From Sneathiella sp. HT1-7 (GTDB lineage: Bacteria > Pseudomonadota > Alphaproteobacteria > Sneathiellales > Sneathiellaceae), in NCBI RefSeq assembly GCF_020731145.1, contig NZ_JAJFZN010000001.1, positions 682,001-746,000 on the forward strand: 64,000 nucleotides of DNA. Direction: 5' to 3'. Below the pieces are notes generated by a model. It saw only the letters and a program-made list of their open reading frames with translations, searched no databases and was not told where the DNA came from. The position numbers and the translations under genes are program-made. Each line of letters begins with the position of its first letter. Within the stretch, counting starts at the first letter, position 1. Positions 2,681 through 20,259 of the stretch are shown piece after piece.

Positions 2681-3583
2681 TCAGACATCATAGCGTTCTT
2701 CAAGAATTGCTGCGATTCGCAGAGCAAATCGAGCAGAAGCAACCGGGAGTGTACGCCCTTTTAACTGGCCCAGGAAAAGATTACCGACAGGAATATCCTT
2801 ACTTGAAATTTCTTTCGTAACATAAGGCCGTGCAGGATCGTCTTTCAAGCCGATCGGAATCTGAAAACCAATACATTTTTCCCGCAACACATAATGTCGC
2901 ATAAACTCGAAGGAATCCGTTTCAACAATTGGCGCGGTTGTTCTGGAAAGGCGGTGTGCCGATGCCTCTATCAAATGTCGAATTGCGATATGAGTTGTGG
3001 GCAAGACATGTGGGTAGTCTAAACAATCTCGCAATCGGATCTCATCCGCTCTCGCTAAGGGGTGGTCCGGCGACATTAAAACGGTAACCGGCTGGGGAAT
3101 CGCACAAATCACCTCAAAGTCCACAAGGTGAACAGGCTCGAACACCAAAGCCAAATCACTGGCGAATGTGCTTAGCTCCTCTTCCGCTTGTGCTCTATCC
3201 CTTACATTTACTGAAAAACTGACCCGAGGATGTTCAGTGCGATACCTCGCTATTTCAGCGGGCAGGAAATACGGAAGAAGTGCTTGTGAGCAAGCAATTG
3301 AAATATGTCCCCGGCGCTCCCCTGAAAGATCGGCCACCTGATTCTGGACTCTAGTCAAATCCGAAATTTGACTCCGAATATGCTGTAACACCAGCTCACC
3401 GGCCGGATTCAAGCGGACGCCACGGGGGAGTCGCTCGAATATTTGCGAACCAAATTCTGACTCAAACCGCTGTATCCGCCGATTCAGGGCGGACGCCGTA
3501 ATATTCATATCTTCAGCCGCTTTCCGAATAGAACCTGCTCGGCTCACGGCTTCGATCAAATGAAACGTCTGTAAGTGCTTCAC
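2681..3583 (-). CDS. LysR-family transcriptional regulator
   Basis: A 300-residue regulator with the usual LysR layout. A winged helix-turn-helix spans residues about 1-60 (TFHLIEAVSRAGSIRKAAE, ALNRRIQRFESEFG, LPRGVRLNPAGE). A periplasmic-binding-protein-like effector domain spans about 90-295. It is divergent from the ABC transporter/allophanate hydrolase operon and separated by 143 bases that carry a T-N11-A dyad (3604-3622). This is the standard arrangement for a LysR protein controlling the neighbouring operon and itself. The inducer cannot be told from sequence; an allophanate- or urea-related compound is only an inference from the target operon. Confidence 0.9.
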   Translation of the reverse strand: MKHLQTFHLIEAVSRAGSIRKAAEDMNITASALNRRIQRFESEFGSQIFERLPRGVRLNPAGELVLQHIRSQISDLTRVQNQVADLSGERRGHISIACSQALLPYFLPAEIARYRTEHPRVSFSVNVRDRAQAEEELSTFASDLALVFEPVHLVDFEVICAIPQPVTVLMSPDHPLARADEIRLRDCLDYPHVLPTTHIAIRHLIEASAHRLSRTTAPIVETDSFEFMRHYVLREKCIGFQIPIGLKDDPARPYVTKEISSKDIPVGNLFLGQLKGRTLPVASARFALRIAAILEERYDV

Positions 3584-3603
3584 AATCGCCCCTCATTTTT
3601 AAC

Positions 3604-3622
3604 CGGTGCAAAAAATGCACCG
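3604..3622. promoter_or_regulatory. Probable LysR operator: 7-bp inverted repeat with T-N11-A
   Basis: CGGTGCA and TGCACCG flank five A residues. Within the dyad, T3607 and A3619 give the T-N11-A spacing typical of LysR binding sites. It lies 21 bases upstream of the LysR start codon and 104 bases upstream of the transporter operon, as expected for the regulator's own site. No strong sigma-70 hexamers were found for either direction. Confidence 0.6.
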
Positions 3623-3726
3623 CTTTTGTGAATTTATAGCATTGGAAATACCACGAAGAAAGAGGCACGGTTTAATCCAATACGCAAGAATCCCCATTCG
3701 AGTTTTATGCGCTGAAAGGAATTACG

Positions 3727-5340
3727 ATGACTCTATCAACGTCCAGAAGGAATTTTCTTAAAATGTCAGGTGGGGCGCTGGGTGTGGCCAGCTTACCTTT
3801 CCTGAAGGTATTGCCCGCACAGGCGGCCAGTGGCGATGTCATTGTCGCTGTGACAGGCCAAACAATAAATAGTCTTGATCTGCACCGCAAAGGAACTAAC
3901 AGAGCCAGCTATCAGGTCGCCGTTAATTGCTATGACCGCTTGGTATCCTTTGGAACGAAAGAAGCCCCTGGCGGTGGACTTTCTTACGATTACACTAAAA
4001 TCGAACCAGAACTGGCGGAGAGCTGGAGTGTCTCTGACGACGGATTAAAGCTCACCTTCAAGATTAAGCCGGACGCAACATTCTGGGACGGAACAAAAGT
4101 AACCGCAGCGGATGTCAAATGGTCCTTTGACCGGGCTGTTTCTGTTGGCGGATTTCCGAGTGTACAAATGAAGGCCGGCGGTCTGGTCAAGCCAGAGCAG
4201 TTTGAGGCAATTGATGATGAAACCTTCGTCATTACATTAGAAAAAGCCTCGAAACTCACTTTGCCGGACTTAGCTGTGCCTGTGCCTATTGTAATTAACT
4301 CAAAGGTCGCGAAAGCTCATGCAACGGAGAAAGATCCCTGGGCTACCGAGTATCTTCACAAAACAGCCGCCGGATCTGGTGCCTTTAAGGTTCTGAAGTG
4401 GAACCCCGGAGAACAGCTTGTATACGAACGCAATGACAATTGGGTCGGCGGGCCACTTCCTGCGATTAAACGCGTCATTGTCAGGGAAGTACCTAACCCT
4501 TCCACGCGTCGTGCTCTGATCGAAAAAGGGGACGTCCAGCTATCATTCAACATTCCAAATAAAGATGCAAAGGAGTTAGCGGAAAAACTAGACGTCTATT
4601 CAACGCCGATAGAAAACTGCATGCATTGTGTTGGTCTGAATAATACATTCGAGCCGTTCCAGGACTCCAATGTTCGAAAAGCGGTCGCTTACTCCATTCC
4701 ATATGAAGAAATCTTCCAGACAGCCGCTTATGGTAGAGGGGCCCGCTTATGGGGAGGTCCGGACACGATCGACTCAATCGAGTGGCCGCGCAAATCTCCA
4801 TATTTTACGGATTTGGATAAAGCGAAAGAACTTATGGCCCAATCCGGTTTTGCCGACGGGTTTTCCGTTCCGTTCTCCATCAGCCTTGGGCTGGCGGACT
4901 GGATGGAGCCAACAGCATTGCTAATTCAGGAAAACTTGGAAAAGATTGGTATTTCAACAGAAATTGAGAAGATACCTGGCGCCAACTGGAGAACCGCCGC
5001 GTTGGTTGAGAAGAAGCTCCCGCTTCATCTCGAAAACTTCGGTGGATGGCTTAATACACCCGATTACTATTTCTTCTGGGCGTATAAAAAAGGACATCTA
5101 TTCAATTCCTCAAACTACATGAACCCGGAAATTGAAAGCCTTGTCGACACCACTCTGCATATGCCGATGGATGACCCACAATACGCACCAAAAATTATGC
5201 GTATGTTCGAGATTGCCTTCGAGGACCTTCCGCGTATACCGCTTTGGCAGCCCGCGCTCAATGTCGCAGCTAATGGTGCCAAGGATTACGAATTCTGGTT
5301 CCATCGCCAACTGGATATTCGTCCGTTGAAAGGGGCTTGA
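3727..5340 (+). CDS. ABC transporter substrate-binding protein, peptide/opine/nickel (family 5) type
   Basis: A 537-residue periplasmic solute-binding protein of the DppA/OppA class. The N-terminus is a Tat-type signal peptide: twin arginine at residues 7-8 in TSRRNFLKMSG, a hydrophobic stretch, then a cleavage site near PAQA/AS (about residue 34). Family signatures include PELAESWSVSDDGLKLTFKI, GTKVTAADVKWSFDRAV and GSGAFKVLKWNPGEQLVYERN. AAGGA precedes the ATG. It is the first gene of a five-gene operon ending in allophanate hydrolase, so the ligand may be a small nitrogen compound rather than a peptide; that is inference. Confidence 0.93.
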   Translation: MTLSTSRRNFLKMSGGALGVASLPFLKVLPAQAASGDVIVAVTGQTINSLDLHRKGTNRASYQVAVNCYDRLVSFGTKEAPGGGLSYDYTKIEPELAESWSVSDDGLKLTFKIKPDATFWDGTKVTAADVKWSFDRAVSVGGFPSVQMKAGGLVKPEQFEAIDDETFVITLEKASKLTLPDLAVPVPIVINSKVAKAHATEKDPWATEYLHKTAAGSGAFKVLKWNPGEQLVYERNDNWVGGPLPAIKRVIVREVPNPSTRRALIEKGDVQLSFNIPNKDAKELAEKLDVYSTPIENCMHCVGLNNTFEPFQDSNVRKAVAYSIPYEEIFQTAAYGRGARLWGGPDTIDSIEWPRKSPYFTDLDKAKELMAQSGFADGFSVPFSISLGLADWMEPTALLIQENLEKIGISTEIEKIPGANWRTAALVEKKLPLHLENFGGWLNTPDYYFFWAYKKGHLFNSSNYMNPEIESLVDTTLHMPMDDPQYAPKIMRMFEIAFEDLPRIPLWQPALNVAANGAKDYEFWFHRQLDIRPLKGA

Positions 5341-10914: not shown

Positions 10915-12267
10915 TTAGCTGCTCGCGCTGATTTCGCGGACAATCTCCGCCTCAATCATGTCGGGACTATGGGCCCCGCGATCTGCCGTTCGCCAAGTGA
11001 AACTATCAAAACTGTCACAGGCCGGGCAATGCGCCTGCCATTTCTCTTCCTGCCGACCACAGGAATCGCAAATCCACAGCGGATCCTGCGGGGCGACGGA
11101 ACTTTTGACTATCCATTCGCGGGCCGCAAAAGCATCAGCATTGGCCTTTTCCTCTAGCTCCGCCAGCATTCGCAAGATACCAGCTGAGGGGTTGGCCCCG
11201 CCCGCTTTCATCAGATGCTCCCGCGCCGGTCCCCAATCGCGCGAAGCAAGCGCTGCCTTGGCCAGCATCAAATGGGTCTCAACATGCTCCGGATTATGTG
11301 GCGCCACGGTTTCTTTCGCCCGGCGGAACCAGTCGGCTGGTTGTTCGCCGGAGACCGTATTACGGATCGCCTCCGCCAGATCTCGGTGCGGTGCATGGTT
11401 CCAGGCTTCCCCGATCAGCTTGTGTAGCTTACGGCTTGATCCCTGCTCCGCCGTTAGCTTCACATCAAGCGCCGCGGCGGGCACGAAGGTCGGATCGAGA
11501 TCGTGAGCCTGCTGTGCAAGAGAGAGGGCGTCCGCTTCGCGCTTCTCCTTTGTTGCGATAAGAGCCTGCTCATAGGTAATAACAGCTTTGGCACGCCGGA
11601 CTATATCGCCCTTTGCCTTCTTCCCGCGGGCAAGTCGCGTAAGGGCGCTCTCTGCGCCTTCCCAGTCCCGGAGTTTCAGGGCAAGTTCATAAAGTTTTTT
11701 TAACACCCAAGCCGTGCCGGGTCGCAACTCATCCGCCCGTTTGGCGAGGTCACGTGCTTTTTCAAGGTCGCCTTCCTTAATTGCCCGGTTAATCAGACCC
11801 CGCAACCCGAGAAATTCCGTATCCTCACGCGCCATCATGCGATCATAATAGATGCTGGCCGCGCGATTATCGTCATTGAGCTCAGCAGCCTGCGCCGCGA
11901 GCAATAATGTCATTGGCTCTCCGGAGAGGTGTTTTTCCGCTGCGATTGCCTGACGGCGTGCCTCATCCGCATCCCCGGCGGCGATAGCCACCATGCCGCT
12001 GGAAATCGCCTCAAGCCCTTTATCGCGACGACGTGCCGAGAAAATTTCACCGATCCGTCCGGGGCCATGCTTGATCCATATCCAGAATCGGTAAGCCAGC
12101 GCCACCAGCACCGCAAAGACAAGCGCTATTGCGCCCACGACTACCACCGACGTCTCAACCACATAGCCGCCCCACGTCAGGCGGACATCTCCGGGATAAT
12201 CGGAGAGCCAGACAGCCGCCATCGCGATGATAACGATCAGGGCGAAGACGAAGATTGTGCGTATCAT
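10915..12267 (-). CDS. hemY: HemY-like membrane TPR protein with C-terminal zinc ribbon
   Basis: A 450-residue protein. The start chosen is the ATG at 12267 with AAGGGG just upstream; an in-frame start further out (12318) would run into the upstream gene. Two N-terminal membrane helices (residues about 1-20 and 38-64) and the HemY_N pattern WLSDYPGDVRLTWGGY are followed by TPR-type helical repeats to about residue 385. The tail has two CxxC pairs (CDSC, CPAC) around residue 400-415, a likely zinc ribbon. It is last in the hemC-hemD-hemY operon. This HemY is not protoporphyrinogen oxidase; its exact job in haem synthesis is unsettled. Confidence 0.85.
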   Translation of the reverse strand: MIRTIFVFALIVIIAMAAVWLSDYPGDVRLTWGGYVVETSVVVVGAIALVFAVLVALAYRFWIWIKHGPGRIGEIFSARRRDKGLEAISSGMVAIAAGDADEARRQAIAAEKHLSGEPMTLLLAAQAAELNDDNRAASIYYDRMMAREDTEFLGLRGLINRAIKEGDLEKARDLAKRADELRPGTAWVLKKLYELALKLRDWEGAESALTRLARGKKAKGDIVRRAKAVITYEQALIATKEKREADALSLAQQAHDLDPTFVPAAALDVKLTAEQGSSRKLHKLIGEAWNHAPHRDLAEAIRNTVSGEQPADWFRRAKETVAPHNPEHVETHLMLAKAALASRDWGPAREHLMKAGGANPSAGILRMLAELEEKANADAFAAREWIVKSSVAPQDPLWICDSCGRQEEKWQAHCPACDSFDSFTWRTADRGAHSPDMIEAEIVREISASS

Positions 12268-12277
12268 GTCGACCCCT

Positions 12278-14359
12278 TTAGTTAGATGAAGGCTTGGAAA
12301 TTGCTGTCGCAGTGGCATCCTGCAGTAGTCCGGCGATGGATTGCTCCACCGTCAAGCGCGTTTTGGCTTTTTCGAGCCAAGGCGCCGCGACGTCAGCCGC
12401 CGCCCCAGAGAGCTTCTCCAGTTCCGCGACGGCTTTATCGAGGTCACTGTCAGCCAGATCCTGTTCGGCCCGGGCAACCACCGCGTCCACATCGTTACCC
12501 TCTACATCATCCACGCGACGGAACTTGATAGCAGATGCAATCCGGTGCAGCGCTTCGCCATACCATGTCTCCTCCGAGGGAAGCCGCGCCGCCTGGCTGA
12601 TATCTGACGCAATGACAGTAAAGTCCCTCTGTAAGGTTGCCAGGGTCGGTGCGCCAACCGAAGCAATCGGCTCCAGCTTTTCGACCAATCCCTTGAACTT
12701 GTCATTGGCAACGGCAGAGACCTGTTTCAAACCATTTTCAAACGGCTCGCTTCCCCGGGTTTCACGTTGAAGCTGTCCGATAGCAAGAAGCATCAAGGTG
12801 CGTTGATTTTCCGCTTCCTCTGCCGACTTGCTAGCAATTTCCGTTTTGAGCGTGCCTTCAAGGGAGGATAGCTGCTCTGCTTGAGACTTAACTGTAGCCC
12901 GATCCGTCGCAATCGTCTTTTCAAGGCCGGTTATCTGCGTCTTAATATCCAATAGAGCCGTTTTTAGATCGACGATCTGATTCTGTATTTCCGGGCTTGG
13001 GTCTGCGACAACCGGGTCAGCTGTCTCAAGCTTTCCGAGAGTTTCCTTTTGCTGCGTCAATTCTTCCAGAGCGGCGGAAAGTTTGTTCTGTTGTTCCGCA
13101 AGCTCACTGGAAAGCTCACTGAGTTCCTGCTTTAGCGATCCAGAAAGTTCATCAAGTTTGCCGTCACCGGCATCAGTCGTTTTACTTACGACTGGTACTT
13201 CTGTCTCCAATTTAGCAACCCGTTCCGACAGAGCGGTATAGTCCGATTTCAGATTATCCCTGACCGCCTCAATCGCTGCGGTGACGTCAGACGCATCAGC
13301 GCCTGTCGTCTTTCCGAACTGACCAGAGATAATCGCCGCTGTCTCCGCTGGCAGATAAGGTTCAACCTTTGGATAAAGAAGCGGCCAAACGGCAAGGCCA
13401 AGGCAGAATACAACCAACAATGCCATCAGGACAAGCCCAGCGCGGGACTTCGGTGCCGCTGCCTCCGATTTTACAGGCGGCTCCGCCCTAGCGGTTTCTG
13501 TATCAGTCTTTTGCGCGTCTGCAGTCTTTTTTCTATCCGTGCCGGCAGAAGGGACAGCACTTTTGCCTGTATCCTCGGTCTTGCCAGAATTTTTATCGGA
13601 CATGTTTTGCTCCCTTGGCATATCGGAGTTATCTTCCTGTTTCCTAGCTTGGCTGACAGCCGTCAGCAAGGCAAGCAGGTTTTCCTGATCGGGCGTCTTC
13701 GCAATATGAACGCCCGCAAATGACAATGTTTCAAGTTTCGCGGCCACTGCTTCACTTAAACAATAGACGGTTATCTTTTCCATATGTGCCGTCAGCCCCG
13801 CCGCCGTCACCAGCCCGACAAATATAGCGGCCGTGCGGGGCGAATAGAACATCACCGCCTGAATAGCGCCGTTTTTTATATCTTTCACGATCTTCGCATC
13901 AAGAGACGTTACCGGCAGCGCTTCATAAAGGACAACGCGTTCGCACTGAAATCCCTTATCAACAAGCATTCCGGAAAGATCACCGGCCACTTCCGTTCCG
14001 GCCACATGGATAAGCCGGCCATGTTCCGGCTGGCATTCGGCGGCGACTTTCTCGGCAAGCGAATTGACGTCCCCACCAGCGGCAGCGACATCGGTAAAGC
14101 CTTCCTGGTGTAAAGCATCGGCCGTTGCCGCACCAACGGCAAAAACCTTTATCTTTCTATCCTTTAAGGCCGGGCCGAGTGCCCGCGCACCATTCGCACT
14201 TGTTACCAGTAGCCCCTGCGCACCGGTGATATCCACCTTTCGGGCTGAGAAGGTCTCAATGTGCATCATGGGAGCAAGGCGCGTTTCGTGCCCCATCTTT
14301 TTCAGGATACGAGCAAGTCGACTGCCGTCCGGCTCAGGTCTGGTAATCAGTATTTTCAT
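12278..14359 (-). CDS. hemD: Uroporphyrinogen-III synthase in one frame with a Mic60/mitofilin-like protein
   Basis: A 693-codon open frame with two parts. Residues 1-240 are HemD (ILITRPEPDGSRLARILKK, LLVTSANGARAL, FYSPRTAAIFVGL), which cyclises hydroxymethylbilane to uroporphyrinogen III. Residues 253-693 resemble alphaproteobacterial mitofilin (COG4223/Mic60). They comprise a charged Ser/Thr/Lys-rich cytoplasmic segment, one membrane helix at about 306-329, a coiled coil at about 355-520 and a C-terminal helical domain. There is no stop between the parts. Methionine 253 has a good ribosome-binding site, so the second part may be made separately, as a fusion, or both. It starts 11 bases after hemC ends and stops 10 bases before the hemY start. 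Confidence 0.85.
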   Translation of the reverse strand: MKILITRPEPDGSRLARILKKMGHETRLAPMMHIETFSARKVDITGAQGLLVTSANGARALGPALKDRKIKVFAVGAATADALHQEGFTDVAAAGGDVNSLAEKVAAECQPEHGRLIHVAGTEVAGDLSGMLVDKGFQCERVVLYEALPVTSLDAKIVKDIKNGAIQAVMFYSPRTAAIFVGLVTAAGLTAHMEKITVYCLSEAVAAKLETLSFAGVHIAKTPDQENLLALLTAVSQARKQEDNSDMPREQNMSDKNSGKTEDTGKSAVPSAGTDRKKTADAQKTDTETARAEPPVKSEAAAPKSRAGLVLMALLVVFCLGLAVWPLLYPKVEPYLPAETAAIISGQFGKTTGADASDVTAAIEAVRDNLKSDYTALSERVAKLETEVPVVSKTTDAGDGKLDELSGSLKQELSELSSELAEQQNKLSAALEELTQQKETLGKLETADPVVADPSPEIQNQIVDLKTALLDIKTQITGLEKTIATDRATVKSQAEQLSSLEGTLKTEIASKSAEEAENQRTLMLLAIGQLQRETRGSEPFENGLKQVSAVANDKFKGLVEKLEPIASVGAPTLATLQRDFTVIASDISQAARLPSEETWYGEALHRIASAIKFRRVDDVEGNDVDAVVARAEQDLADSDLDKAVAELEKLSGAAADVAAPWLEKAKTRLTVEQSIAGLLQDATATAISKPSSN
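13601..13616 (-). promoter_or_regulatory. Internal ribosome-binding site and ATG for the mitofilin-like part
   Basis: On the reverse strand AAGGGAG sits six bases before the ATG at 13603 (residue 253 of the hemD frame), followed by MSDKNSGK. This looks like the original start of a separate mitofilin gene whose upstream hemD stop codon is absent. Confidence 0.5.
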
Positions 14360-14370
14360 TATGACTTAGT

Positions 14371-15345
14371 CTACAGTCCAAAAGACAAATTGGCACCCCT
14401 TGCCTGCGCCTTTAGATTCGCGCCGATGCTTTCACCCAGTTCCATCGCTTCGGCGAGGGTACCACGCCCGCTCGCGTCAAGGCGGATAGAGCCATCCTCC
14501 GCAAGCAGGCTCGCCCGGAAATAAAGGCTGTTCCCCTCAACAAGTTCCGCATAGCCCGCGATGGGCGTCCGGCAGGAACCGTCGAGCACAGCAAGCATCG
14601 CGCGCTCACAGGTAACGCGCGCGAGACTGACCGAATCATTGATCGGTCCAAGCAGAGACGCAATCTCTTCATCCGCCTCCCGCCGTTCAATCCCGATTGC
14701 CCCTTGTGCCACAGCCGGCAACATATCATCAACGTTAATTAATTCCGTGATCACACTCTCATTCCCGAGTCGCTTGAGCCCTGCGAGCGCGAGCAGAGTC
14801 GCATCGGCCTGCCCTTCCGCGAGTTTGCGCAGGCGTGTTTGAACACTGCCGCGAAAAATGCCAACGCGAAGATCGGGCCGCCGGTTCAGGACCTGTGCCT
14901 GACGGCGAAGGCTGGCCGTACCGACGAGCGAGCCCGGCGGCAAGTCAGCAAGGCTCTTTCCGCTCGCAGAAATAAAGGCATCGCGCGCATCTTCGCGCGG
15001 CAGGATACAGTCAATTATCAGGCTCGGTGGTAGCGACGTTTCCATATCCTTCATGGAATGTACGGCAAAATCTATCCTGTCCGCGAGCAGCGCCTCCTCT
15101 ATCTCCTTAACGAACAAACCCTTGCCGCCTGCCTCACTGAGCGCACGATCCTGGATCTGGTCCCCTGTCGTCTTAATCACCACAATCTCCAACTGCTCCG
15201 GGTCGAGGGCGTCTTTATGCGCCTCCAGAAGCCGGGTGCGGGTCTCCTCGGCTTGCGCGATCGCGAGCGGGCTTCCCCGGGTGCCTATCCTGTATTTTTT
15301 GACAAAGGTCATGTTGCGGGATATTCCGTCAGATGTTAGAGCCAT
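14371..15345 (-). CDS. hemC: Porphobilinogen deaminase (hydroxymethylbilane synthase)
   Basis: A 324-residue cytoplasmic enzyme that polymerises four porphobilinogens. Motifs are RIGTRGSPLAIAQAEE, GGKGLFVKEIEEAL, DFAVHSMKD and GTASLRRQAQ. The dipyrromethane-cofactor cysteine is C258 in LDGSCRTPIAGY. The frame stays open much further upstream, but that extension is only the antisense of tsaD. I therefore start at the ATG at 15345; the ATG at 15312 (MTFVKK) is a possible alternative, and neither has a strong ribosome-binding site. It is the first gene of the haem operon and divergent from tsaD with a 33-base gap. Confidence 0.93.
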   Translation of the reverse strand: MALTSDGISRNMTFVKKYRIGTRGSPLAIAQAEETRTRLLEAHKDALDPEQLEIVVIKTTGDQIQDRALSEAGGKGLFVKEIEEALLADRIDFAVHSMKDMETSLPPSLIIDCILPREDARDAFISASGKSLADLPPGSLVGTASLRRQAQVLNRRPDLRVGIFRGSVQTRLRKLAEGQADATLLALAGLKRLGNESVITELINVDDMLPAVAQGAIGIERREADEEIASLLGPINDSVSLARVTCERAMLAVLDGSCRTPIAGYAELVEGNSLYFRASLLAEDGSIRLDASGRGTLAEAMELGESIGANLKAQARGANLSFGL

Positions 15346-15378
15346 ATGCAATTTGCACCGCTTTGTAATAGATAACAA

Positions 15379-16449
15379 ATGCCAAACCAACAAATAATCG
15401 TCCTCGGGCTGGAAAGCAGCTGCGATGAAACGGCTGCTGCGGTCGTGACGGCGGAGAAGGAAATTCTCTCGAATGTCGTCCTGTCGCAAAATGACGCCCA
15501 TGCGCCTTTTGGCGGCGTAGTGCCGGAAATCGCGGCCCGCGCCCATGTGACCGAGATGGACCGGCTGGTCGATCAGGCGATGACGGAGGCCGGAGTTTCC
15601 TATGACGATTTGTCCGCCGTTGCGGCGACAGCGGGGCCGGGACTGATCGGCGGCGTCCTTGTCGGGCTGATGACGGCGAAAGCCATTGCTTCTGTCGCGG
15701 GCGTGCCGCTGATCGGCGTCAACCATCTGGAGGGGCATGCCCTTACGGCACGGCTGACGGACGATGTGGCGTTTCCCTACCTTCTGTTGCTGGTCTCCGG
15801 TGGGCATTCACAAGTGTTGGTGGTCGAAGGGGTAGGAAAATATCGGCGTCTTGGGACCACGATTGACGATGCCGTGGGTGAGGCCTTTGATAAAACCGCG
15901 AAGATGCTAGAGCTTGGCTTTCCGGGTGGGCCGGCCGTTGAGAAAACCGCGGCAACCGGCAACCCGGACCGATTCAACTTCCCTCGCCCAATGAAGGGGC
16001 GGGAGGGTTGCAATTTCTCCTTTTCCGGCCTTAAGACGGCCGTACGGCAGGCGCGTGAGAAGATGGGCGAAAAAGTCAGCGAAACAGACATTGCCGATCT
16101 CGCCGCCAGCTTTCAGAAGGCCGCAGTGGAAAGCCTGATGGACCGGGTGGCCAAGGCCCTTGATCTTTTTATCGAGGAATATGGTGGAGGCGGCACACTA
16201 GTCGTTGCCGGGGGCGTCGCCGCCAATCAATATTTGAAAGGCGCGTTGGAGACACTCGCAAGAGAAAAGAGCGTTGCGCTTAAAGTACCCCCGCCGAAAC
16301 TCTGCACCGATAATGGCGCAATGATCGCCTGGGCGGGAATTGAACGTCTCAAATGCGGATTTTCGGATGGGCTGGACCTTGCTGCGCGGGCACGCTGGCC
16401 GCTTGACCCCAACGCCGAGCCGGCCCCCTTCGCCGGATACAAAGCTTGA
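15379..16449 (+). CDS. tsaD: tRNA N6-threonylcarbamoyladenosine transferase
   Basis: A 356-residue ASKHA-fold protein that transfers threonylcarbamoyl to A37 of ANN-decoding tRNAs, together with TsaB and TsaE. The N-terminus is [16 protein letters not shown]. The metal-binding pair H116/H120 is in VNHLEGH, and LLVSGGHSQ and [12 protein letters not shown] are present. Length is normal for the family. The hemC-divergent position is common in alphaproteobacteria. The promoter must overlap the first codons of hemC. Confidence 0.97.
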
Positions 16450-16462
16450 CCATAGAATTGGA

Positions 16463-17167
16463 ATGATGACGATGACAGAAGACGAACAAAAACAGGCAGC
16501 AGCAGAAAAAGCTGTTGAGTATATTGAGGACGGCATGGTCGTTGGCCTCGGAACAGGATCCTGCGCAGCGAAGATGGTTGACCTGTTGGGAAAACGGGTC
16601 GCCCACGGACTCTACGTCACAGGCGTTCCAACGTCGGAGGCAACAGCACAGCAGGCCCGCAACCTTGGCATTCCCGTCGTTGGTCTTGATGAAGTAGGTG
16701 TCATTGACCTCACCATTGATGGCACTGATGAGGTAGACCCGGCAGGCCGCCTGATCAAAGGTGGTGGTGGCGCGCATTTACGCGAGAAAATTGTCGCGTC
16801 TCTGTCAGACAGGATGATTGTGATTGCCGAAGCGAAAAAGAAGGTCGCCCAGCTTGGCACCTTCAAGCTGCCGGTTGAGGTTATCCAATTTGCTGCACCT
16901 GCGTTGAAACCCCGGCTCGAGGCGCTCGGTTCAACGCCAACACTCCGCCTCGCAAAAGACGGTACGCCCTTCACCACCGACGAAGGCAACTATATTTACG
17001 ATTGCGATTTCGGGAAAATTGCCGAGCCAGAGGAGCTAGCTCTGACACTTAGTACAATGCCCGGTGTTGTAGAGCATGGTCTCTTTATTGGCTTTGCCGA
17101 TCTTGTCCTGATTGGAACGGATGCGGGCGTAGAGGTGATTGAGATCGAGACGAAAAAAGCCGGATGA
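16463..17167 (+). CDS. rpiA: Ribose-5-phosphate isomerase A
   Basis: A 234-residue enzyme interconverting ribose-5-phosphate and ribulose-5-phosphate. Signatures are GLGTGSCAAKMVDLL, TSEATAQQA, IDGTDEVDP, KGGGGAHLREKIVA (active-site Glu) and TDEGNYIYD. The frame extends upstream into tsaD; the family N-terminus fits the ATG cluster at 16463, 16466 or 16472, of which the first is listed. It lies between tsaD and gpsA, 13 bases after tsaD. Rpe, the other phosphopentose enzyme, is also in this window (24731). Confidence 0.95.
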   Translation: MMTMTEDEQKQAAAEKAVEYIEDGMVVGLGTGSCAAKMVDLLGKRVAHGLYVTGVPTSEATAQQARNLGIPVVGLDEVGVIDLTIDGTDEVDPAGRLIKGGGGAHLREKIVASLSDRMIVIAEAKKKVAQLGTFKLPVEVIQFAAPALKPRLEALGSTPTLRLAKDGTPFTTDEGNYIYDCDFGKIAEPEELALTLSTMPGVVEHGLFIGFADLVLIGTDAGVEVIEIETKKAG

Positions 17168-17275
17168 AAAAGATGGCCTCTGGCCGTATCGCGTTATTCT
17201 GCACTTCTTGTCAGGCGCCGATCATGCTAATCAGTCCTTAACTTGATGGCTGACAGAGCAGGATATGCTGGGCGG

Positions 17276-18277
17276 ATGACTAAGGTAAGTGTAATTGGTG
17301 CGGGAGCTTGGGGTACGGCGTTGGCGATTGTCGCGGGAAAAGGCGGCAACGAAGTGCTGCTCTGGACACGGCACGCGGACCATGCGGATGCGCTTAACCG
17401 GGATAAGACCAACCGGAAATATCTTCCGAATGTCCCGCTTCCCCCGGGCATAGTAGCAACGAATGACCTCGCCAAGGCCGGGGACGCGGATATCGTTCTG
17501 TTGGTCGTTCCCGCCCAAAAAACCAGAGAAACCCTGGCTCGACTAAAGCCCTCGCTCGCTCCGGATACTGCTCTCGTCATGTGCGCCAAAGGGATCGAGC
17601 AGGACAGCGGCCGCCTGATGAGTGAAGTGGTCAGTGAGATAACACCCAATAGTCCGCTGGCCATCCTCTCTGGACCCAACTTCGCGAAAGAAATAGCTGT
17701 CGGATTGCCGGCGGCGGCCACCCTCGCAATCAGTGATAAGGAAATCGGCGAAAACCTCGTCAAAGCTATCGGCCTTCCAACCTTTCGGCCTTATTTGACG
17801 GACGATGTCATCGGCGCGCAGATCGGTGGCGCCGTCAAAAATGTACTGGCCATTGCCTGCGGTGTTGTCTCCGGCGGCAAGCTCGGCGAGAATGCCCGCG
17901 CCGCCCTGATTACACGCGGAGTGGCGGAAATTCTGAGGCTTGGCGAAAAACTGGGCGCGCGAGCCGAAACGCTGATGGGACTCTCCGGACTCGGCGATCT
18001 GGTACTGACTTGTAGTTCTCCCGCCTCGCGGAATTTTTCCCTCGGCGCTGCGCTTGGCCAAGGTGACATCCTCGGCGAGATATTGCAGCAACGCACTGCT
18101 GTAACCGAAGGGGTTTACACCGCGTCAGCAATCTGCCGTCTGGCCGAAAAATACAATATCGAAATGCCAATCTGCTTCGCCGTCGATGAAATTTTAAATG
18201 GAGGCGTCGCCGTCTCCAGCGCTGTCGAGGAACTACTGGCCCGACCGTTCAGGGATGAACGGCTTGCAGGCTTCTAA
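17276..18277 (+). CDS. gpsA: Glycerol-3-phosphate dehydrogenase [NAD(P)+]
   Basis: A 333-residue cytoplasmic enzyme making sn-glycerol-3-phosphate for phospholipids. It has the nucleotide-binding motif VIGAGAWGTALA, LSGPNFAKEIA, GAVKNVLAIACGV, the LMGLSGLGDLVLTC segment, and a C-terminal EGVYTASA region. The start follows the family N-terminus MTKVSVIGAG; an ATG ten codons upstream (17246) lacks a clear ribosome-binding site. YciI and EVE genes downstream are a common alphaproteobacterial neighbourhood. Confidence 0.95.
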   Translation: MTKVSVIGAGAWGTALAIVAGKGGNEVLLWTRHADHADALNRDKTNRKYLPNVPLPPGIVATNDLAKAGDADIVLLVVPAQKTRETLARLKPSLAPDTALVMCAKGIEQDSGRLMSEVVSEITPNSPLAILSGPNFAKEIAVGLPAAATLAISDKEIGENLVKAIGLPTFRPYLTDDVIGAQIGGAVKNVLAIACGVVSGGKLGENARAALITRGVAEILRLGEKLGARAETLMGLSGLGDLVLTCSSPASRNFSLGAALGQGDILGEILQQRTAVTEGVYTASAICRLAEKYNIEMPICFAVDEILNGGVAVSSAVEELLARPFRDERLAGF

Positions 18278-18300
18278 AGATCGTAAAAGGAGAACTGAGA

Positions 18301-18588
18301 ATGCTGTTTATTGCCCATTGTACTGACAAAGCCGATCATTTGCAGGTCCGCCTCGACACCCGACCGGCACATCTGGACTTTCTGAAGGCAAAAGGAAACG
18401 CACTTAAACTTGCGGGACCGACCCTAGATGCCGATGGGGAAGTCCCAACCGGCAGCCTATTGATTTTTGAAGATACAGATTTGGCGACCGCAAAAGCGTG
18501 GGCAGCAAAGGACCCTTATGCCGCAGCAGGCCTCTTCGAAAGCGTCATCGTAAAGCCCTGGAAACATGCAATCGGCGGCGGGCTTTAA
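18301..18588 (+). CDS. YciI-family protein
   Basis: A 95-residue single-domain protein of the YCII dimeric alpha-beta-barrel family. The N-terminus is MLFIAHCTDKADHLQVRLDT. The family's conserved His is followed by Leu (RPAHLDFLK), and it has an Asp-Pro pair (AKDPYAAAGLF). A strong AAGGAGA precedes the ATG, 23 bases after gpsA, so it is probably cotranscribed. Biochemical function is unknown for most members. Confidence 0.9.
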   Translation: MLFIAHCTDKADHLQVRLDTRPAHLDFLKAKGNALKLAGPTLDADGEVPTGSLLIFEDTDLATAKAWAAKDPYAAAGLFESVIVKPWKHAIGGGL

Positions 18589-18603
18589 CCTCCCTGGCGA
18601 TGA

Positions 18604-18673
18604 TTGCGTTTCGTGTAATATTATGATGTAGTGACCACCGTAAATAATAATAAAAACCCAAAAAGGTGGTCAC
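18604..18673 (+). promoter_or_regulatory. Promoter-like hexamers and a 9-bp inverted repeat that includes the ribosome-binding site of the acyl-CoA dehydrogenase gene
   Basis: TTGCGT and TGTAGT are 17 bases apart (18604-18632). A perfect repeat follows: GTGACCACC at 18631-18639 and GGTGGTCAC at 18665-18673, with an A-rich 25-base loop. The right arm contains the Shine-Dalgarno-like AGGTGG and ends on the base before the ATG. As RNA it would hide the ribosome-binding site; as DNA it could be a repressor operator at the transcription start. The repeat is certain; the promoter is tentative. Confidence 0.55.
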
Positions 18674-19837
18674 ATGCAATTCTCACAAGAGCATATCGCG
18701 CTTAAAGATACCGTTAACCGGATTATTGACGAGCACATCAACCCCCATGTTGATCAGTGGGAAGAAGAAGGCATTTTCCCGGCCCATGACGTGATGAAGC
18801 TTCTGGCAGAGGCCGGTCTTCTCGGCATCGGTAAGCCGGTGCAATATGGTGGGCTGGATCTCGACTTTTCTTATGAAATGGTCTTTGCAGAAGCGCTTGG
18901 CAGTATTCGGGCGAACGGTGTTTCCACGTCAATCGGTGTTCAGACCACCATGTGTACCCCTGCCCTCACCAACTATGGTAGCGAGGAACTCAAGCAGGAG
19001 TTTCTTGTGCCAACAATCGCCGGGGAAATGATCGGCTGTATCGGCGTGAGCGAGGAAGCGGCCGGGTCGGATGTTGCCAATACCCGCACCTATGCAAAGC
19101 GCGATGGTGATGACTATGTGATCAATGGCTCAAAAATGTGGATCACCAACGGGGTGCAGGGTGACTGGATTTGCTTGCTTGTGAACACTTCCGAGGAAGA
19201 CGGGCCGCACCGGAATAAATCGCTGATCATTGTGCCGCTTAAAACCAAAGGCGTTACTGTCGCCCGCAAGCTCGACAAAATGGCACTGCGATGTTCAGAC
19301 ACGGCACAGCTATTCTTTGATGATGTCCGTGTACCGGTCCGGAACCGGATAGGCGAAGAAAATATGGGCTTTACCTATCAGATGCGACAGTTTCAGGAGG
19401 AAAGATTGTACGTGGCGGCGCGAGCGCTGCGTGGCTGCGAGATGGCGATCGAAGATACGATCGAATATACGAGCCAACGCAAGGTGTTTGGCGAAACTCT
19501 TCTCGACAAGCAAGTTGTCTATCATAAGATGGCCGAGTTGCAGACACTGGTCGAATCCGCCCGGTCGCTGCTATACCGTTCTATCGAAGAATACATCAAT
19601 GGCAATGATGTGACCAAGCTCGCGTCAATGACTAAATATCTTGTCGGCACGCTCTGCAATAAAGTTCCGAGCGAATGCTTGCAATATTGGGGTGGACAGG
19701 GCTTTATGTCCGAGAACTGGATTTCCCGTGGGTATCGCGATCTTCGACTTTCTTCGGTCGGTGGCGGCGCGAATGAGATCATGCTCGAAATCGTCGCCAA
19801 GCAGATGGGCATCTTCCCGGGCAAACGCAAAAAATAG
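18674..19837 (+). CDS. Acyl-CoA dehydrogenase (LCAD/IVD-like active site)
   Basis: A 387-residue FAD enzyme introducing a 2,3 double bond into an acyl-CoA. Family motifs are CIGVSEEAAGSDVANTRTYA, GSKMWITNG and SQRKVFGETLLDKQ. The place where medium-chain enzymes carry the catalytic Glu (EGT) reads GGGANEIM here. A Glu is instead present at 243 in QEERLYVAARAL, the position used by long-chain and isovaleryl-CoA dehydrogenases. The enzyme is therefore probably active with that alternative base. Substrate unknown. It interrupts the common YciI-EVE pairing. Confidence 0.9.
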   Translation: MQFSQEHIALKDTVNRIIDEHINPHVDQWEEEGIFPAHDVMKLLAEAGLLGIGKPVQYGGLDLDFSYEMVFAEALGSIRANGVSTSIGVQTTMCTPALTNYGSEELKQEFLVPTIAGEMIGCIGVSEEAAGSDVANTRTYAKRDGDDYVINGSKMWITNGVQGDWICLLVNTSEEDGPHRNKSLIIVPLKTKGVTVARKLDKMALRCSDTAQLFFDDVRVPVRNRIGEENMGFTYQMRQFQEERLYVAARALRGCEMAIEDTIEYTSQRKVFGETLLDKQVVYHKMAELQTLVESARSLLYRSIEEYINGNDVTKLASMTKYLVGTLCNKVPSECLQYWGGQGFMSENWISRGYRDLRLSSVGGGANEIMLEIVAKQMGIFPGKRKK

Positions 19838-19845
19838 GAGCCTTG

Positions 19846-20259
19846 ATGAAATACTGGCTGATAAAATCGGAACCGGGGACCTGGTCCTGGCAGGATCAAC
19901 TCGACGCAGGAGAAGAGGGTACCTTCTGGGATGGGGTGCGGAATTATCAGGCGTCGAACAACATGAAAGAAATGAAAATCGGCGACCTTTGTTTCTTTTA
20001 CCATTCCGTCAAGGAGAAACAAATCGTTGGTATCGTCGAGGTGATTAAAGAATACTACCCCGATCATACCGACGAAAAGGGGCGCTTCGGCATGGTGGAC
20101 GTCAAGGCCGTCAAATCTGTCCCAAACCCGGTAACGCTCGCGGATATCAAGGCCGAACCACGCCTTGAAAATCTCGCGCTTGTTCGCCAAAGTCGTCTGT
20201 CCGTTGTGCCAGTGGACGGACCATCCTGGCACCTGATTTGCAAGATGGGCGGCCTATAA
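19846..20259 (+). CDS. EVE-domain protein (thymocyte nuclear protein 1-like)
   Basis: A 137-residue single EVE domain, a PUA-like fold proposed to bind modified bases in RNA or DNA. The N-terminus YWLIKSEPGTWSW, the WDGVRNYQASNNMKEMKIGD segment and the C-terminal LSVVPVDGPSWHLI are all typical. AGGAG lies five bases before the ATG at 19846 (a TTG one codon earlier is less likely). It begins eight bases after the acyl-CoA dehydrogenase stop. Confidence 0.93.
   Translation: MKYWLIKSEPGTWSWQDQLDAGEEGTFWDGVRNYQASNNMKEMKIGDLCFFYHSVKEKQIVGIVEVIKEYYPDHTDEKGRFGMVDVKAVKSVPNPVTLADIKAEPRLENLALVRQSRLSVVPVDGPSWHLICKMGGL

Follow-up and report, generated by a model that had tools for sequence, protein, structure and literature searches.

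A shared hemD–mic60 reading frame with a conserved internal start in the haem operon of Sneathiella

Domain organization of the fused frame

The window, i.e., the whole 64,000-nucleotide stretch of Sneathiella sp. HT1-7 DNA that was analysed, contains one open frame that joins hemD to a mitofilin-like (Mic60) gene between hemC and hemY. The features of this region are as follows.

14371..15372, minus strand: hemC (porphobilinogen deaminase), ending 11 nt before hemD; the hemC start coordinate is provisional
12278..14359, minus strand: hemD-mic60 fused open frame, 693 aa, 73.6 kDa, conserved in the genus
13655..14359, minus strand: HemD (uroporphyrinogen-III synthase) domain, residues 1–235, from Pfam HEM4 and Foldseek
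13373..13429, minus strand: single transmembrane helix, residues ~311–329, from hydropathy; helix 307–335 in the model
12335..12934, minus strand: C-terminal mitofilin (Mic60) match, residues 476–675, Pfam PF09731
10915..12267, minus strand: hemY, directly downstream of the fused frame, with a Shine-Dalgarno (SD) energy of −7.4 kcal/mol

The 693 codons, read in the window from 14359 to 12278 on the minus strand, contain no internal stop, and the encoded parts follow the order HemD, linker, transmembrane helix, coiled coil, and mitofilin domain. Pfam HEM4 covers residues 14–229 (E = 1e-35, 123 bits against a curated cut-off of 27.5), and NCBIfam PRK09189 gives a full-length match to the HemD part that lies below its equivalog cut-off (151 vs 223). 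The predicted model has a HemD fold, with moderate confidence in this part: the top 12 Foldseek hits are all HemD structures (best E = 1.7e-10), and 3re1, 1wd7, and 3mw8 are among the HemD structures matched. Pfam PF09731 (Mitofilin) is matched at E = 5e-19 (69 bits against a curated cut-off of 27.4), and residues 619–682 show a sequence match to the Mic60–Mic19 structure (PDB 7pv1, E = 4e-4). The AlphaFold model was built from six close sequences and is poor outside HemD (mean pLDDT 50), so that the assessment of the Mic60 part relied on sequence alone. Hydropathy is maximal near residue 311. An N-terminal transmembrane helix followed by a coiled coil, as expected of Mic60, is present, with long helices downstream in the low-confidence model. 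The linker of ~75 residues between HemD and the membrane helix has low predicted confidence, and its sequence is very variable in the genus.

The window's genome is nearly complete and contains one HEM4 match and one Mitofilin match, which makes the fused frame the sole source of both HemD and Mic60. Indeed, no second hemD or mic60 that would render the fusion dispensable was found elsewhere in this genome, and the fused HemD, as the product of its only hemD, would be expected to have enzyme activity. The original prediction had placed HemD and a mitofilin-like part in one frame without a separating stop, and this holds: the frame is open throughout and both Pfam domains exceed their cut-offs.

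The neighbouring genes show features of their own. The C-terminus of HemY (10915-12267, minus strand) carries a LapB-like CxxC...CxxC zinc ribbon, for which the PF18073 match (E = 4e-5) is just under the cut-off. A divergent operon at window positions 15379-20259 has the order tsaD-rpiA-gpsA-yciI-acyl-CoA dehydrogenase-EVE, with genes named from their translations; this is the order given in PMC7641849 with rpiA and the acyl-CoA dehydrogenase-like gene inserted.

The internal start at codon 253

Within the frame, the following features mark a predicted second, internal initiation site.

13601..13603, minus strand: internal start codon, residue 253, ATG here and ATG or GTG genus-wide
13610..13616, minus strand: SD of the internal start, AAGGGAG, in which codons AGG GAG encode R249 and E250
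13598..13654, minus strand: segment of low synonymous change, codons 236–254, over the internal initiation region, from synonymous divergence
12278..13603, minus strand: predicted free Mic60 product from the internal start, 441 aa, 46.8 kDa

The ATG at 13603, claimed to have AAGGGAG six bases upstream, lies in frame as residue 253 exactly as described, and the anticipated product sizes of about 75 and 48 kDa are close to the calculated masses of the whole fusion (73.6 kDa) and of the product starting at residue 253 (46.8 kDa). A start codon (ATG or GTG) with an SD is found at this site in all 22 aligned genus sequences, and the SD duplex energy is −6.4 kcal/mol or lower in every one of them. 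Across 300 synonymous-codon shuffles, a null that does not fully remove relatedness, start and SD occurred together in 3.7 sequences on average and in 10 at most, compared with the 22 observed; the next-best alignment column reached 8 of 21. At locus L017, the internal ATG lies three codons further on in the alignment. Where residue 253 is valine, it is encoded by GTG in 12 of 12 cases, while the GTG usage among valine codons of these genes is 28%.

Synonymous conservation is concentrated at the same place. Residues 250, 253, and 249 rank 1, 2, and 4 of 530 columns, and the six-codon window from 248 is the highest of 620 such windows (0.79, i.e., ~6 sd above the mean of 0.09 with an sd of 0.11). 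When six close genomes are compared, codons 249–254 have a synonymous divergence of 0 and codons 236–248 one of 0.20, as opposed to 0.56–0.63 in the other tested regions; the low values upstream of the SD suggest that the initiation region is wider than the SD and start. A shared RNA structure was not seen at the internal start, where single-sequence folds differ between species and show a region less structured than average in some species only. Likewise, a search for a promoter or terminator at the hemD/mic60 join gave nothing above chance. Judging from this pattern of constraint, the internal SD and start are maintained in Sneathiella by selection at the DNA level, and the internal start is kept by selection rather than being a relic that survived by chance. 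Both elements are conserved beyond amino-acid constraint, which places the gene among those with an in-frame internal start.

Initiation at hemD itself appears to be different. The SD energy at the hemD start is near 0 in many close members, compared with −7.8 kcal/mol at the internal start and −7.4 kcal/mol at hemY. Since the hemD start mostly lacks an SD and is located 11 nt past the hemC stop, its translation is probably coupled to that of hemC.

Age and recurrence of the fused frame

The genus sample comprised 23 other genomes placed in Sneathiella, 22 of which had a match; with the window's own genome included, 22 of 23 matching genomes carry the fused frame. Among the 22 other genomes with a match, it lies in one piece in 19. 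The join is also intact in G009, where the frame is split between two contigs, and in G018, where it runs off the contig end. In G008 (L121), the frame is broken by two frameshifts in the assembly, which may reflect either decay or assembly error, and the SD and GTG are kept. The closest named records, Sneathiella sedimenti, S. litorea, and S. chungangensis, have the same frame open in their assemblies, and the fusion extends to G024, the sole sampled sister genus in the family. The genus sequences compared fall to 32–37% identity.

Independent assemblies agree on the open frame, which rules out an assembly error in this genome, and the occurrence of the fusion throughout the genus and in the sister genus excludes a recent stop loss. 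Thus, the recent event suggested in the original prediction must be abandoned, and so must readthrough, as there is no stop codon to be read through. Alignment of the junction in sister genomes, which had been proposed as a check, found the join intact in relatives, without a stop. From this distribution, the join is as old as the genus Sneathiella.

For the class as a whole, an even sample of 289 alphaproteobacterial genomes was surveyed, 242 of them with a match, and long frames were fetched. Beyond Sneathiella, HemD and Mic60 share one stop-free frame at no fewer than 44 loci, which belong to the sister genus and to at least 23 other families; weaker matches are unlisted, so that 44 is a lower bound. 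The earlier statement that Mic60 homologues sit by haem genes as separate genes is therefore correct for many alphaproteobacteria, but not for all. In separate-gene loci, free Mic60 usually begins with M-[STA]-[DE]. In 23 of these 44 fused loci, the part of the linker immediately following HemD contains a start codon with this motif behind it; ATG plus motif is 16-fold commoner there than in the remainder of these proteins (p = 7e-15), and its SD exceeds in strength those of other ATGs (p = 2e-8). Several further loci, among them L045-L047, L073, and L077, lack the motif but combine a strong SD with a start codon, and, taken together with the motif-bearing starts, about half to two thirds of fused loci keep a candidate internal start.

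Family f37 is fused in all 16 genomes with a match, with the internal SD and ATG kept in 10 and lost in 6. The six members without the internal start have no Mic60 match outside the fused frame, so that the fusion alone must serve there. A synonymous-constraint scan of f37 did not single out the internal start, and selection in this family is therefore argued from presence and absence only. The best tree requires 14 or more changes of fusion state, but support for its deep branches is weak, so that the number of independent fusions can be given only roughly. It is likely, on this comparison, that hemD and mic60 have fused and split repeatedly across the class.

Other observations were made in the same survey. 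In G052, three copies of the fusion locus (G052:C1:1774-2652, 3192-4070, and 4596528-4597406) are located at both contig ends, partly inverted; most likely, the two ends of a circular chromosome overlap in this assembly. In many Mic60 proteins of alphaproteobacteria, whether fused or encoded separately, the region from the start to the transmembrane helix contains a Cro/CI/YdaS-like helix-turn-helix ('FGGIRPMAxKL'). Carriers include L049, L052, and L057, with Pfam PF07022, PF15943, and PF14549 matches below cut-off, and, by eye, L053, L062, L065, L068, L073, L075, L076, L079, L081, L089, and L098. Such a DNA-binding-like cytoplasmic domain is unexpected on Mic60.

A proposed dual-product gene and its relation to known systems

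Collectively, we favour, with a probability of about 0.8, a dual-product gene from which a HemD–Mic60 fusion would be translated from the hemD start and free Mic60 from codon 253. That both proteins are made from the gene is what we infer from the open frame and the conserved SD and start, and to this extent the combination foreseen originally, a fusion plus free Mic60 beside hemY, has sequence-level support. Under this mechanism, HemD would be made only in a Mic60-tethered form and would be held on the cytoplasmic face of the inner membrane via the disordered linker, followed by the transmembrane helix, with the coiled coil and mitofilin domain of the fusion in the periplasm. Independent initiation at codon 253 behind the strong SD would yield free Mic60 from the same mRNA, presumably in excess, with HemD carried by a minority of subunits. 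Since Mic60 reportedly forms homo-oligomers (PMC12631773), the fusion and free Mic60 may co-assemble, probably as mixed oligomers. Uroporphyrinogen III synthesis would then be docked at Mic60 sites of the inner membrane with HemY alongside, and the HemC product would be delivered from the cytoplasm to the membrane-held HemD. Haem synthesis would in this way be tied to membrane shaping by the fusion. A recurrent in-frame HemD fusion, without another hemD or mic60 in the genome, constitutes direct sequence evidence of a physical link, and the conservation of the second start suggests a requirement for free Mic60 that persists in some lineages but is absent from others.

Three other readings were weighed against the dual-product gene. 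If only a single HemD–Mic60 protein were made, the internal SD and start would be a relic of an ancestral separate mic60, and the fusion alone must indeed suffice in the 6 of 16 f37 members without a start at that place. However, a relic is expected to decay, as the internal start did in f37, whereas the Sneathiella SD and start are under stronger synonymous constraint than any other part of the gene, among sequences as divergent as 32–37% identity, which makes this reading highly improbable. It is also conceivable, although unlikely, that the functional Mic60 is the product of the internal start and that the long protein is cleaved, or its translation drops off, in the linker to give free soluble HemD, with the shared frame only coupling translation. 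HemD enzymes are normally soluble monomers, and proteolytic release could take place in a linker as variable and as poorly predicted as this one. Yet, any single stop mutation would free HemD, and the stop-free frame is nevertheless kept in 22 genus sequences and at least 44 outside loci; moreover, the genus alignment revealed no conserved cleavage motif in this segment. As for the loss of a stop codon in one strain only, or a sequencing or assembly error, the same frame in 21 other genus genomes and the sampled sister genus, all independent assemblies, leaves it a negligible chance.

HemD–HemX fusions appear under database product names in other proteobacteria. As in the dual-product gene proposed here, HemD is joined in them to a single-pass membrane protein at the same operon position, but HemX (PF04375) is a different Pfam family from Mitofilin. 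HemX was rejected as the second part, as the window's genome has no PF04375 match. The sampled HemX frames were not clearly fused to HemD, and one possible HemD–HemX fusion (G355, L177) proved to be two separate frames.

The neighbourhood of mic60 and haem genes in alphaproteobacteria, as separate genes, is known from the gene order in PMC7641849. The Sneathiella locus shares with these loci the hemC-hemD-mic60-hemY order, divergent from tsaD-gpsA-yciI-EVE, as well as the N-terminal anchor and C-terminal mitofilin domain of Mic60, and it keeps the M-[STA]-[DE] N-terminus at the internal start. In contrast to them, it has one shared frame in which HemD lacks its own stop codon. The literature searched offered no explanation for the location of mic60 in the haem operon. 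In-frame internal translation starts are also known, from N-terminal proteoforms (PMC11005335) and Cas11b (PMC11899642), in which a long and a short protein likewise come from one frame. Here, however, the long form would be a two-function fusion and the short form a complete ancestral second gene, and the evidence is purely comparative. No description of a HemD–Mic60 fusion or dual start was found in the open-access literature, and the fusion with its dual start appears to be new here, although an earlier mention in the primary alphaproteobacterial Mic60 papers is possible.

Mic60 is the core cristae-organising protein and was inherited by mitochondria from alphaproteobacteria (PMC12631773). 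In mitochondria, MICOS, including Mic60, is reported to associate with ferrochelatase and to support haem synthesis (Dietz 2021 and Piel 2016, cited in PMC9133952 and PMC9163361), and by analogy this association makes a scaffold role of the fusion plausible. A wider proposal would be that Mic60 has repeatedly acted as a haem-synthesis scaffold in Alphaproteobacteria, with HemD on a minority of subunits and the two starts setting the ratio, as a forerunner of the MICOS–ferrochelatase link; this we put forward tentatively and with considerable doubt, and inheritance of the mitochondrial scaffold role from a HemD–Mic60 fusion is speculation. In both systems, Mic60 is physically linked to a haem-synthesis enzyme, which in the present case is read from the sequence. 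The mitochondrial association, however, is non-covalent and concerns the last enzyme, ferrochelatase, whereas the bacterial link would be covalent and concerns HemD.
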